DNA of 64,000 bases from Thaumasiovibrio occultus (lineage in GTDB: Bacteria; Pseudomonadota; Gammaproteobacteria; Enterobacterales; Vibrionaceae): NCBI GenBank assembly GCA_019703815.1, contig AP023052.1:558001-622000 (forward strand), written 5' to 3'. Both the position numbers and the translations under genes were made by a program. This document shows, one piece after another, positions 19,631-54,572 of the stretch; positions within the stretch are counted from its first letter, which is position 1; each line of letters begins with the position of its first letter. The notes under the pieces are model-generated. The model was not told the DNA's origin, did no database searches, and worked only from the letters and a program-made list of their open reading frames with translations.

Positions 19631-19741
19631 GCTTTGTTAAATTGCAAAAATTGCTGTCTGTGGGAAAATTGCTGACTAGCTTAATTTAACCAGCGTTGAG
19701 TAACAATCGGTCTCATCGCAAACAATGATGTGAAGGGTAAA

Positions 19742-21070
19742 ATGGCACAGTTTTTTAAGCCGCAACGACGTAAAGTGGCTGATAGTCGTCATCAAGCAGT
19801 CAAAATTGAACGGCTTGATAGCCATGGTGCTGGTATTGCCCTACAAAAAGGCAAGCCGCTGTTTATTGAAGGGGCCTTGCCTGGCGAAGAGGTGTTGGCC
19901 CAAGTGACGGAGCAAAAACGTGACTTTGGCCGTGGCAAGCTGATCAAAGTGCTTAAAGCCAGTGATGCGCGTTTAACGCCTTTTTGTGAGTATGCTAACC
20001 GCTGTGGTGGCTGTAGCTTGCAGCACATGGATGCGGATAAGCAACGCGAGCACAAGCAAGCGGCGATGGCGCACCTAATGACGCGCGTAGTGAGCCGGAC
20101 TTCACAGGCGGCGCCGGAACTTGCGGCGGCCATCACCTCCGCACCGCGCGGTTATCGTCGTAGCGCCCGCTTGAGCGTGTGGTTAGATAAGCAGCAACAA
20201 TTGCAGATCGGCTTTCGTCAAAAAGGCAGTAAAGCGGTGGTCGATATCAGCCACTGTGATGTGCTTGACCCGCAGCTGTCTGAATTAATCCCAGAACTTA
20301 AAGCATTATTGATCAGCTTCGGGCAACCGCGTGCGCTGGGTCATGTAGAATTGATCGCCGCAGAAAATGGCCGCGTGGTCTATCTGCGCCATACTGAGGC
20401 GTTAAAGCCCGCGCATCTCGATAGCTTATTGGCGTTTGCCAAACAGCACGATTTGTTGCTGTTTCACAGTAGTGATGGCACTACCGTTCATCAATTGCAT
20501 GGGGCGGCGTCGTACTATGTGATTGATGGTCAGCAGATCCACTTCTTGCCTGGCGATTTCATTCAGGTGAACGCGGCAGTGAACCAAGCGATGGTGACGC
20601 AGGCGCTGGCGTGGCTTGCCCCGAAGGCGACAGATCGGGTATTAGATCTGTTCTGTGGCCTCGGTAACTTCTCACTGCCGTTGGCGGCGAAAGTAGCGGA
20701 AGTGGTTGGCGTTGAAGGGGTGGAAGATATGGTGACGCGCGCCAGTGCGAACGCGGCGCATAACCAGCTGAGCAATGTCCATTTTTACCAAGCCAACTTG
20801 GAGCAAGATTGGCAATCTCAGCCGTGGGCGGCACAAGCGTTTGATTTGGTGCTGCTTGATCCGGCGCGCGCAGGCGCGGCGGGAATTATGTCGCATATTG
20901 TCGAACTTGCGCCAAAACGTGTGGTCTATGTGTCCTGCAATCCGGCCACGCTAGCACGAGATGCTGCGGCGTTGTTAGATGCGGGCTATACGCTGGATAA
21001 GCTCGGGATGATGGATATGTTCCCCAATACAGGGCATACCGAGTCCATGGCGTTATTCGTCAAGGTATGA
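19742..21070 (+). CDS. rlmD: 23S rRNA (uracil-1939-C5)-methyltransferase
   Basis: A methyltransferase of 442 residues with an N-terminal TRAM domain (VKIERLDSHGAGIA through GRGKLIKVL), an iron-sulfur cluster motif CEYANRCGGCSLQH, a SAM-binding segment DLFCGLGNFSLPLA and the catalytic cysteine in VSCNPATLARD. It modifies U1939 of 23S rRNA. Of two start codons, ATG at 19742 gives the family start MAQFF and has GAAGGG upstream; the one at 19730 would add four residues. It is divergent from barA and followed by the structured relA leader. Confidence 0.95.
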   Translation: MAQFFKPQRRKVADSRHQAVKIERLDSHGAGIALQKGKPLFIEGALPGEEVLAQVTEQKRDFGRGKLIKVLKASDARLTPFCEYANRCGGCSLQHMDADKQREHKQAAMAHLMTRVVSRTSQAAPELAAAITSAPRGYRRSARLSVWLDKQQQLQIGFRQKGSKAVVDISHCDVLDPQLSELIPELKALLISFGQPRALGHVELIAAENGRVVYLRHTEALKPAHLDSLLAFAKQHDLLLFHSSDGTTVHQLHGAASYYVIDGQQIHFLPGDFIQVNAAVNQAMVTQALAWLAPKATDRVLDLFCGLGNFSLPLAAKVAEVVGVEGVEDMVTRASANAAHNQLSNVHFYQANLEQDWQSQPWAAQAFDLVLLDPARAGAAGIMSHIVELAPKRVVYVSCNPATLARDAAALLDAGYTLDKLGMMDMFPNTGHTESMALFVKV

Positions 21071-21110
21071 GATAACTACAAATCGCTCTCTCTATCCCTG
21101 TAGTGACGGT

Positions 21111-21251
21111 GGCACGGCAAGTGAATGGCGTGCCTAAAGTGGGGTAGAGCGGTAAAACAGGTAGGTTTACCGTGAGCAAGTCGCGCGCCCATTGTCTTTA
21201 AAAATGGGCGACGACAACAGAAATGAAGCGTCTGCTACTGTGTGGTAGCAG
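21111..21251 (+). promoter_or_regulatory. Four-hairpin leader upstream of relA
   Basis: Four separate stem-loops lie in a row in the 211-bp rlmD-relA gap: GGCACG/CGTGCC (21111-21134), CGGTAAA/TTTACCG (21150-21172), CGCCCATT/AATGGGCG with an outer GTCG/CGAC pair (21180-21215) and CTGCTAC/GTAGCAG (21232-21251). None is followed by a T-run, so they are not plain terminators. The last ends about 30 bases before the relA ATG. They may be a structured 5' leader or a small RNA; this is inferred from base pairing only. Confidence 0.5.
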
Positions 21252-21281
21252 CAAAAATAAATCGTAAATTGGGAAGGAACG

Positions 21282-23492
21282 ATGGTCGCAATCCGTGGTG
21301 CTCATTTAACTAACGATAGCACCTTTGAAGTCACGACTTGGGTTGAGTCGCTGCATCAGAGTAAAGAAGGTCAACAACGTCTGCTTGAGGCGTATCGCCT
21401 GTGTGAAGAGCAGGTGGCCGATTCTGAGTATGCGGCCCTGGTCTTGTGGCGTGGGCGTGAGATGGTGGAGATCCTCGTCACCCTCAACATGGATATTCGC
21501 ACGCTAAAGGCGGCGCTACTGTTTCCGGTGGTGGAAATGGGGCTCTACAGCCATGAAGCGCTGCGCGAGAACCACAGCAAAGAAGTGGTCGCCATGATTG
21601 AAGGGGTTGAGCAGATGGCTGCGATTGGTCAACTCTCTGCCACCACAGGAGATACGGCAACCTCCGCGCAGGTGGATAATATCCGTCGCATGTTATTGGC
21701 GATGGTCGAAGATTTCCGCTGCGTGGTGATCAAGCTCGCTGAGCGGATTTGTCATTTACGGGAAGTGAAGGACGAGCCGGACGCGATCCGTCGGATGGTG
21801 GCAAAAGAGTGTGCCAACATCTATGCCCCACTGGCGAACCGATTAGGGATCGGTCAGTTAAAGTGGGAAATTGAAGATTACACCTTCCGTTATCAACACT
21901 CAGATACCTACAAGCAGATCGCCAAACAACTTTCCGAGCGCCGTATCGACCGCGAGCAGTATATTGAAGAGTTTGTCACCGATTTAGCCAGTTCAATGCA
22001 CGCCTCGAGCATCAATGCCGACGTGCAAGGACGACCGAAACATATCTACAGCATCTGGCGCAAAATGCAGAAGAAGAGCCTCGCCTTCGACGAGCTGTTT
22101 GATGTGCGCGCGGTGCGGATCATCGCCGACCAAATTCAAGATTGTTACGCCGCGCTGGGGATCGTTCACACCAAATACCGCCATTTGCCGAAAGAGTTTG
22201 ACGATTACATCGCCAACCCCAAACCGAACGGTTACCAGTCAATTCACACCGTGGTGCTAGGCCCGAACGGTAAAACCGTAGAGATCCAGATCCGCACCAA
22301 AGCGATGCACGAAGAGTCAGAGCTTGGCGTTGCGGCGCACTGGAAGTACAAAGAAGGCGGCAAAGACTCGGCCTACGACGAGAAAATCACCTGGCTACGT
22401 AAACTACTGGCATGGCAAGAAGAGATGTCAGACTCGGGCGATATGCTCGATGAAGTACGCAGCCAAGTGTTTGACGATCGCGTGTATGCGTTTACGCCAA
22501 AAGGCGATGTGGTCGACTTGCCGCTGGATGCAACGCCGCTCGATTTCGCCTATCACATTCACTCGGAAGTGGGCCATCGCTGCATTGGTGCCAAGGTGGA
22601 AGGACGAATCGTGCCGTTCACCTATAAGCTGCAAATGGGTGAGCAGGTGGAAATCATCACCCAAAAAGAGCCCAACCCATCACGTGACTGGTTGAACCCG
22701 AACTTAGGCTTTGTCACCTCAAGCCGTGCTCGCGCTAAAGTGCACGCGTGGTTTCGCAAGCAAGATCGCGATAAGAACATTCTCGCCGGTAAAGAAATTC
22801 TTGAAACCGAGCTCGCCAAAATGGGCGCCAAGCTCAAAGATGCCGAAGTCTATGCGCTAAAACGCTTTAATGTGAACAGTGCCGATGAGCTGTTTGCCGG
22901 TATTGGCAGTGGTGATTTGCGGATCAACCAAGTGTTGAACCACATCAACGCGATGCTCAACAAGCCGACGGCAGAAGAAGAAGATCAGCAGCTGCTCGAA
23001 AAACTCAGTGAGCATCACGACACCCGTCGTCATAAGCCAAGCAAAGATGCCATTGTGGTCGAAGGGGTCGATAACCTGATGACCCACTTGGCGCGTTGTT
23101 GCCAGCCTATTCCTGGCGATGACATTTGTGGCTTTGTCACCCAAGGCCGTGGCATTTCGGTGCATCGCTCGGACTGTGAGCAGCTTGAAGAGCTGCGCCA
23201 TCATGCACCTGAGCGGATCATCGATACGGTGTGGGGCGGGGGCTTTAGTGGCAAGTATCATATTACCGTGCGCGTATTGGCGACGGAGCGTGGCGGGTTG
23301 CTTAAAGATCTCACTACTACGTTTGCCAACGAAAAAGTGTCAGTCAAAGGGATGAAGAACCGCGTCGATCATAAAAAGCAGCTCAACGTGATGGACTTTG
23401 AGTTGGAGATGACGGATCTCGACACCTTGTCGCGGGTGCTTAAGCGGATTGAATCGCTGAAAGATGTCGCGCAAGCACGTCGCTTACACTAA
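21282..23492 (+). CDS. relA: GTP pyrophosphokinase RelA
   Basis: The ribosome-bound (p)ppGpp synthetase of 736 residues, switched on by uncharged tRNA during amino acid starvation. The order is a degenerate hydrolase domain (the HD of SpoT is replaced by FP at residues 81-82 in LLFPVVE, so it cannot hydrolyse ppGpp), a synthetase domain (GRPKHIYSIWRKMQKK, NGYQSIHT), a TGS domain (VYAFTPKGDVVDLP), a conserved-cysteine domain (ARCCQPIPGD) and a C-terminal ACT domain. AAGGAACG precedes the ATG. Genes rlmD before and mazG after are the normal neighbours. Confidence 0.97.
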   Translation: MVAIRGAHLTNDSTFEVTTWVESLHQSKEGQQRLLEAYRLCEEQVADSEYAALVLWRGREMVEILVTLNMDIRTLKAALLFPVVEMGLYSHEALRENHSKEVVAMIEGVEQMAAIGQLSATTGDTATSAQVDNIRRMLLAMVEDFRCVVIKLAERICHLREVKDEPDAIRRMVAKECANIYAPLANRLGIGQLKWEIEDYTFRYQHSDTYKQIAKQLSERRIDREQYIEEFVTDLASSMHASSINADVQGRPKHIYSIWRKMQKKSLAFDELFDVRAVRIIADQIQDCYAALGIVHTKYRHLPKEFDDYIANPKPNGYQSIHTVVLGPNGKTVEIQIRTKAMHEESELGVAAHWKYKEGGKDSAYDEKITWLRKLLAWQEEMSDSGDMLDEVRSQVFDDRVYAFTPKGDVVDLPLDATPLDFAYHIHSEVGHRCIGAKVEGRIVPFTYKLQMGEQVEIITQKEPNPSRDWLNPNLGFVTSSRARAKVHAWFRKQDRDKNILAGKEILETELAKMGAKLKDAEVYALKRFNVNSADELFAGIGSGDLRINQVLNHINAMLNKPTAEEEDQQLLEKLSEHHDTRRHKPSKDAIVVEGVDNLMTHLARCCQPIPGDDICGFVTQGRGISVHRSDCEQLEELRHHAPERIIDTVWGGGFSGKYHITVRVLATERGGLLKDLTTTFANEKVSVKGMKNRVDHKKQLNVMDFELEMTDLDTLSRVLKRIESLKDVAQARRLH

Positions 23493-23524
23493 ACAACAAG
23501 GCGGCGTTATCGCTGCACGTTAAC

Positions 23525-23579
23525 CTGCCATCCACGGCAGTTAGTCTATATCAATCGCGGGAGACTTCAGGTCTCCCGC
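23525..23579 (+). other. Two hairpins between relA and mazG
   Basis: CTGCC/GGCAG (23525-23540) and a strong 9-bp stem GCGGGAGAC/GTCTCCCGC (23557-23579) lie in the 104-bp gap. The second is followed by TGCGTTAAG, not a T-run, so it is unlikely to be a full intrinsic terminator; it could be an mRNA end stabiliser or processing site. Confidence 0.5.
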
Positions 23580-23596
23580 TGCGTTAAGGAATACTT

Positions 23597-24406
23597 ATGG
23601 CGAACTCATCGATTTCTCAACTTCTAGCGGTAATGGCCAAACTTCGCGATCCTGACGGCGGTTGCCCGTGGGATCTGAAGCAGAACTTTGACACTATTGC
23701 CCCGCACACCATTGAAGAAGCCTACGAAGTAGCCGAAGCCATCGCGCAGAAAGATTGGAATGAGGTGAAAGAAGAGTTGGGCGATCTCTTGTTTCAAGTG
23801 GTGTTTTACAGCCAGTTGGCGCAAGAGCAGGGCTTGTTTAGCTTTGACGAAATTGTCGATACCCTCAATGAAAAATTGATCCGTCGCCACCCGCATGTGT
23901 TTACCAGCACCGAGTTCGACAACGAAGAGCAAGTGAACGCGAATTGGGAAGCAGAGAAAGCCAAAGAGCGCGCCGGCAAAGGGCAAGAGAGTATTCTTGA
24001 TAACGTCCCGCATGCGTTGCCAGCGCTGATGCGTGCCGACAAGCTGCAAAAGCGTTGTTCACGCCACGGTTTCGATTGGGATACCTTGGGGCCGGTGGTC
24101 GATAAGGTACAAGAAGAGATCGAAGAGGTTATGGTCGAAGTGACCCAAATTGTGCCCGATGAAACCCGCGTTGAAGAAGAAATTGGCGATTTGTTGTTTG
24201 CGGTGGCGAACTTAGCGCGCCATGTCAACGTGAAGCCAGAGATGGCACTGATCAAGGCCAATCGTAAATTTGAGCGCCGGTTTCGCCAAGTGGAAAAAAA
24301 TGTGCTAGAACAAGGAAAGCGTTTGGAAGAGTGTGATCTCGATACGCTTGAGGCAGCATGGCAAACAGTGAAGCTGTCCGAAAAGTCGACGCAGGGCGAA
24401 AACTAG
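23597..24406 (+). CDS. mazG: Nucleoside triphosphate pyrophosphohydrolase MazG
   Basis: An enzyme of 269 residues that hydrolyses NTPs to NMP and pyrophosphate and is thought to limit ppGpp and toxic nucleotides. Two MazG domains are visible: the first with CPWDLKQNFDTI, EEAYEV and EELGDLLFQVVF near residues 24-75, the second with DKVQEEIEEV and EEEIGDLLFAVAN near 170-210, both with the metal-binding E-x-x-E...E-x-x-D pattern. It follows relA, the conserved arrangement in enteric bacteria and vibrios. Confidence 0.95.
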   Translation: MANSSISQLLAVMAKLRDPDGGCPWDLKQNFDTIAPHTIEEAYEVAEAIAQKDWNEVKEELGDLLFQVVFYSQLAQEQGLFSFDEIVDTLNEKLIRRHPHVFTSTEFDNEEQVNANWEAEKAKERAGKGQESILDNVPHALPALMRADKLQKRCSRHGFDWDTLGPVVDKVQEEIEEVMVEVTQIVPDETRVEEEIGDLLFAVANLARHVNVKPEMALIKANRKFERRFRQVEKNVLEQGKRLEECDLDTLEAAWQTVKLSEKSTQGEN

Positions 24407-54162: not shown

Positions 54163-54197
54163 AAAAAGGCGGTAACCTTTCGGTTACCGCCTTTCCC
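54163..54197 (-). terminator. Terminator of the tmRNA gene
   Basis: A 13-bp perfect stem (AAAGGCGGTAACC with GGTTACCGCCTTT, TTTC loop on the plus strand) is followed on the minus strand by six T. It lies just after the tmRNA 3' end. Confidence 0.92.
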
Positions 54198-54204
54198 AAA
54201 CGTT

Positions 54205-54572
54205 TGGTGGAGCTGGCGGGAGTTGAACCCGCGTCCAAAACCAGTCTAACTGATGGCGCTACATGCTTAGTTTGTCTTTATTCTCGTCAATGCACTGCGG
54301 ACAAACACGCCATACAGAGACATACCTAAATCGAGTTTAACGCTTCAGATCTCAGGTCAAATCATCCACGCGATTCTGTTTGGGTTTGACTGCCCTGATT
54401 CCCCGTCCTACAGACTAAGGCTAGGGAGGGCAGGCTCTAAGCAGGTTATTAAGCTGCTAGTGCGTAGTTTTCGTCGTTTGCGACTATTTTTTTGCGGTTT
54501 TTTAGCGAGGCCAACCGCACCTCGGCATGCTCCATGAGCCTTCTTGATCCTGTCGAATCCTGAATCAGCCCC
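54205..54572 (-). ncRNA. ssrA: Transfer-messenger RNA (tmRNA)
   Basis: A tmRNA of about 368 bases that rescues stalled ribosomes and tags the broken protein for proteolysis. The 5' end starts GGGGCTGATTC and the 3' end reads ...CCCGCCAGCTCCACCA, together forming the tRNA-like domain with a T-loop (GGTTCAACTCC). The tag frame at 54481-54452 encodes ANDENYALAA followed by two TAA stops, the common gammaproteobacterial tag (the first alanine comes from the tRNA part). smpB, its protein partner, lies just upstream. Confidence 0.97.

Follow-up and report, generated by a model that had tools for sequence, protein, structure and literature searches.

The 211-bp gap between rlmD and relA in Thaumasiovibrio occultus carries four consecutive hairpins of mutually unrelated sequence (H1 to H4), and we consider it, with a probability of about 0.55, to be a lineage-specific non-coding spacer between the two cistrons. 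On this reading, which also covers a negligible effect on relA, any influence of the hairpins on mRNA decay or read-through would be passive. The palindromes are present, they exceed what shuffled sequences produce, and they are absent from the relatives examined. The genome comprises 4.5 Mb in two contigs, and the locus lies in the 64-kb stretch of it studied here (hereafter the window). The collection used for comparison contained one other genome of the genus, and the named RelA relatives come mostly from Photobacterium, Vibrio and kin. The local gene order is rlmD, relA and mazG (23597–24406), followed by two genes that we take from their translations to be pyrG and eno; the name rlmD is likewise presumed, from its Pfam domains and the gene order. 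The rlmD stop codon ends at 21070 and the relA ATG lies at 21282, and the features discussed below are as follows.

19730–21070, plus strand: presumed rlmD (rumA), 23S rRNA uracil-5-methyltransferase, a 446-aa ORF with Pfam tRNA_U5-meth_tr and TRAM that adjoins relA in relatives
21071–21281, plus strand: rlmD–relA intercistronic gap, 211 bp, 48% G+C; the median gap in relatives is 65 bp (128 loci)
21085–21177, plus strand: possible enclosing helices around H1 and H2 in the predicted fold of the whole gap, varying with the ends chosen
21111–21134, no strand assigned: hairpin H1, 6-bp perfect arms GGCACG/CGTGCC plus two inner pairs in the fold
21150–21172, no strand assigned: hairpin H2, 7-bp perfect arms
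21180–21215, no strand assigned: hairpin H3, 8-bp perfect arms at 21186–21210 plus outer GTCG/CGAC
21232–21251, no strand assigned: hairpin H4, 7-bp perfect arms, eight pairs in the fold
21270–21279, plus strand: relA Shine-Dalgarno region, mean unpaired 0.60–0.66 in predicted ensembles
21282–23492, plus strand: relA, (p)ppGpp synthetase, a 736-aa ORF with Pfam HD_4, RelA_SpoT, TGS, RelA_AH_RIS and ACT_4

A sequence-only reading of this DNA had pointed to four non-overlapping stems of 6–8 bp before relA, one of them extended by an outer GTCG/CGAC pair, and to the lack of a T-run. We recovered the stems as perfect inverted repeats of 6, 7, 8 and 7 bp within 21111–21251, the extended one is H3 (GTCG at 21180–21183 paired with CGAC at 21212–21215 in the minimum-energy fold), and the relA strand of the gap contains no run of four T. 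When the whole gap is folded, bases before 21111, which that reading had missed, are predicted to pair into the string, with CTCTATCCC at 21090–21098 joined to GGGGTAGAG at 21141–21149 in one enclosing helix and GCTC at 21085–21088 joined to GAGC at 21174–21177 in another. The details of the predicted folds shift with the sequence ends chosen, and in some of them part of the H2 arm is drawn into the helix that encloses H1. Of the four hairpins, H4 pairs most consistently across these predictions, and the relA Shine-Dalgarno is predicted to be mostly unpaired in all four sequence contexts folded.

The same reading had held such a string to be more than expected in 141 bases, and this was borne out by dinucleotide shuffling: none of 3000 shuffles contained four non-overlapping perfect repeats of at least 6 bp (the mean was 0.19 per shuffle), and none of 200 shuffled controls folded as well on either strand. 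The folding energy of the 141 bases is −51.2 kcal/mol on the relA strand, where shuffles average −40.1 (z = −3.0), and the fold of the other strand reaches z = −5.4; the corresponding values for the whole gap are −2.8 and −5.0. These results support a strong structure, beyond what dinucleotide composition explains. The stronger antisense-strand fold is as expected for DNA palindromes and fits them better than an RNA selected on the relA strand, whereas the family-wide trend is the opposite, with z ≤ −3 on 14 sense vs 4 antisense strands among 102 unique gaps of at least 45 bp (the query's included).

Within the window, the place before relA is the only one with four such repeats per 141 bp (scan step of 5). 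A wider sample of 464 kb, consisting of the window and 20 segments of 20 kb and amounting to about a tenth of the genome, yielded one other four-repeat place, intergenic and A+T-rich by eye, in a scan whose step of 3 misses exact fits and scores the relA place itself at three. Measured by folding, 21111–21251 is not the most structured intergenic stretch of the sampled genome. Among 407 intergenic 141-bp segments of the same 464 kb, one of which (at 21071) overlaps the query, six equal or exceed the query in structure on both strands, two have a lower best single-strand z, and 38 of 814 single-strand values lie at or below the query's relA-strand z; the query was taken at its best register and the other segments at fixed steps, which flatters its rank in these counts.

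The gap sequence is single-copy in its own genome, where 13 other matches span 15–27 nt at E > 0.8. BLASTN against 196 other genomes of the family, with at most four candidates scored per genome, returned no homologue; matches of any kind occurred in only three genomes, and the longest covered 34 bases. The other genome of the genus has an 81-bp rlmD–relA gap, 130 bp shorter than the query's, with a different main hairpin, and the two gaps can be aligned mainly at both ends. A covariance model derived solely from the window sequence (its two rows come from the same genome and carry no evolutionary information) matched nothing in 39 of the 40 other genomes searched. Its single match, at E 0.0165 per genome under stricter filters, is at about chance level for 40 genomes, and within the window it recovered itself and a second place at E 0.29. 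Rfam gave no match in 21040–21320 at the gathering threshold or at E ≤ 5. No covariation was found, as no examined relative has the sequence and there were no pairs to count; its lack thus reflects missing homologous sequence in the relatives and not stems that break. As far as sampled, the hairpin string looks private to this lineage. A literature search, judged by titles and abstract starts, returned nothing on arrays of hairpins in relA leaders of Vibrionaceae, and a word search of PMC3505737 found no relA as a whole word.

We compared the rlmD–relA gap across 128 relative loci, made up of 79 of the 80 loci in the RelA relative set, 29 from a genome survey and 20 regions; L025, in which no rlmD was found, was left out. 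Of the 121 genomes surveyed 120 had relA, and the gap was read at 30 of these loci, one of them this genome's own. Gap length ranges from 26 to 372 bp with a median of 65, the two longest having uncertain ends: gaps of at least 211 bp occur only in L123 (372 bp) and L128 (261 bp), and a weak rlmD match leaves the gap ends uncertain in L123, L127 and L128. Some species occur twice between sources, and the unique gaps number 117 with the query's. At least one perfect repeat of at least 6 bp is present in 38 of these 117, and the sense-strand z is ≤ −2 in 28 of the 102 that reach 45 bp, the query's being included in both counts. The named Photobacterium loci, which have the highest RelA identity in the RelA relative set, mostly have short gaps, many of them weakly structured or unstructured. 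Hairpins in the rlmD–relA gap are frequent across the family, but lineage-specific in kind.

The relA–mazG gap is more structured than the rlmD–relA gap, with z ≤ −2 on the sense strand in 54 of 68 unique gaps, among which the window's is counted, in a count that covers only loci of the RelA relative set and the window and that used 60 shuffles vs 100 for the rlmD–relA gap. A structured gap at this locus therefore does not by itself point to control specific to relA. In the window the relA–mazG gap (23493–23596, 104 bp) holds a 9-bp perfect hairpin at 23557–23579 with a sense z of −5.0, and it leaves no room for mazEF, the genes that lie between relA and mazG in E. coli.

Other lineages have structures of their own in the rlmD–relA gap. 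Grimontia and Enterovibrio carry one 9-bp hairpin after rlmD, with changes on both sides in five of nine pairs among eight chosen sequences (L037, L051, L054, L057, L059, L061, L068 and L071), a count that favours the structure in that the structure was named from the same sequences and divergent rows were omitted. Twelve gaps were listed and nine aligned before these eight were taken for the pair count, with the divergent L109 and L118 dropped, L057 added and three rows trimmed. The gap of the Enterovibrio locus L057 contains a further, long hairpin of about 55 nt (L057:1885–2000), for which we rejected a MITE-like origin, its genome holding no second full copy and one 23-nt match at E 0.68. 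In many Vibrio gaps (L016, L040, L043 and others) we observed the arms GAACTAAC-N9-GTTAGTC, nearly invariant around a free loop in 13 sequences that were picked from 17 of the type for bearing arms seen by eye and were cut to 27 nt. These arms look like a conserved palindrome or hairpin, and they are absent from the window's gap. Elsewhere in the window, the tmRNA gene (54205–54572, minus strand, tag ANDENYALAA) has a 13-bp hairpin just downstream, at 54165–54194.

rlmD and relA are probably co-transcribed, and by analogy with the relA promoters of E. coli the gap is probably transcribed as part of the relA 5′ leader. In E. coli, three relA promoters lie within rlmD and one at its end, and the relA mRNA made from a sigma-54 promoter in rlmD has a leader of unusual length (PMC7593582, PMC4591121); if this promoter arrangement holds, the gap would lie in relA mRNA here as well. 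A sigma-54 candidate in the gap itself was rejected on comparison with the consensus: its −24-like TGGCACG at 21110 (21110–21125) overlaps H1, and its −12 half has two mismatches, including the C of GC.

Under the spacer reading that we prefer, transcripts starting in or before rlmD would carry the gap as part of a long relA leader, where the hairpins may retard 3′-to-5′ decay of the rlmD segment, protect the relA segment at its 5′ side or damp read-through, while they are predicted to leave the relA Shine-Dalgarno largely open. RNA structures that set differential decay of segments are established in E. coli operons, with protective 5′ structures that lay within the upstream coding region and not in the gap (PMC5927463), which counts against the analogy. 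A papBA-like cut before the hairpins is unsupported, since no RNase E-type RN|WUU site occurs between 20990 and H1; the two such sites in 20990–21300 are at 21164 (in H2) and 21266 (beside the Shine-Dalgarno). A further point against a passive spacer is that even this genome seldom has four stems in a row within 141 bp, which is more than such a spacer needs. As nothing points to selection for any one structure, the string may have no function beyond spacing.

The main rival, unlikely in our judgement though well ahead of the others, holds that the palindromes have no function, having arisen and persisted by chance or through DNA-level processes in an unconstrained spacer. No copy was found in the same genus or family, the antisense fold is the more extreme, as for DNA palindromes, and six of the 407 intergenic segments of this genome are as structured on both strands; the absence of four stems from all 3000 shuffles and the mostly unpaired Shine-Dalgarno in the predictions point the other way.

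The sequence-only reading had likened the string to a structured 5′ leader or a small RNA. Of this, a strong structure in a probably transcribed gap is supported, and a dedicated regulatory leader or small RNA is not, no homologue, Rfam match, strict sigma-70 match or relA-strand terminator-like site having been found; the observation was true, correctly located and statistically unusual, and is without evidence of conserved function. A relA-specific cis-regulatory leader, in which alternative folds would tune relA read-through or translation, appears improbable, even though structure extends over the whole 211-nt gap, the predicted folds differ with different ends, and RNA-level control of relA is reported in another bacterium, Legionella, where CsrA binds relA mRNA at a site over the RBS/start codon (PMC5338858). 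Apart from the lack of any conservation found, the relA strand has no ORF of at least 20 aa confined to the gap that could serve as a leader peptide (a 38-aa ORF, 21192–21076, lies within the gap on the other strand), and no stem followed by a T-run, as in an intrinsic terminator or attenuator, occurs on it in 20900–21400. CsrA target leaders carry GGA in hairpin loops. None of the hairpin loops here does, the only GGA motifs of the gap being those at 21272 and 21276 in the Shine-Dalgarno, which leaves room for CsrA binding at the relA Shine-Dalgarno itself. Less probable again is the more specific proposal that a structured leader of about 170 nt arose recently in this species alone and, by switching between folds, tunes RelA synthesis at the RNA level.

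We regard a separate small RNA in the gap, sense or antisense, as very improbable. Neither strand has a strict sigma-70 match in 20900–21400, which is weak evidence with 0.7 expected by shuffles, and loose matches of 7–8 of 12 positions were uninformative. The relA strand is without a run of four T, and the covariance model found no relative beyond its one chance-level match. In its favour are the strong antisense fold and, at H4, a single weak minus-strand site that resembles a terminator (21255–21231), of a kind for which 0.4 are expected in the region's shuffles. Just as improbable, and disfavoured, is a mobile or repeat element (REP, MITE or integron attC) inserted between rlmD and relA, which would suit the 130 bp by which this gap exceeds that of the other genome of the genus, but not a sequence that is single-copy, unlike dispersed REP/MITE/ERIC-like repeats, that matches nothing in the plasmid collection at E ≤ 1 and, in the phage collection, three records over just 25 nt at E 0.2, and that contains neither of the attC core motifs, RYYYAAC and GTTRRRY.

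This case shows that a conspicuous run of hairpins ahead of a key gene can be confined to a single lineage, and that the gap upstream of relA changes in both length and structure between lineages. Were the leader to control relA, the stringent response would have gained an RNA-level input within a single genus.

Several known arrangements bear comparison with this one. The papBA-type stabilising hairpins of E. coli likewise lie in the gap between two genes of the same direction, ahead of the ribosome site of the second gene (PMC5927463), with co-transcription of the pair probable here, and here too we find stable structure between co-directional genes, with predicted folds beyond those of shuffles. 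Unlike that system, the string before relA has no RN|WUU cleavage motif ahead of its first hairpin, and it consists of several hairpins in a row, known from sequence and predicted folds, with no conservation found. The Grimontia/Enterovibrio hairpin occupies the same gap, upstream of an A-rich ribosome site, but is one 9-bp stem with paired changes, whereas here there are four unrelated stems without relatives. The long relA leader of E. coli shares the rlmD–relA order, and here also the gap is probably in the relA leader; the two Escherichia gaps in our set (L079 and L080), in contrast, are 47 bp long and hold one longer and one short stem.
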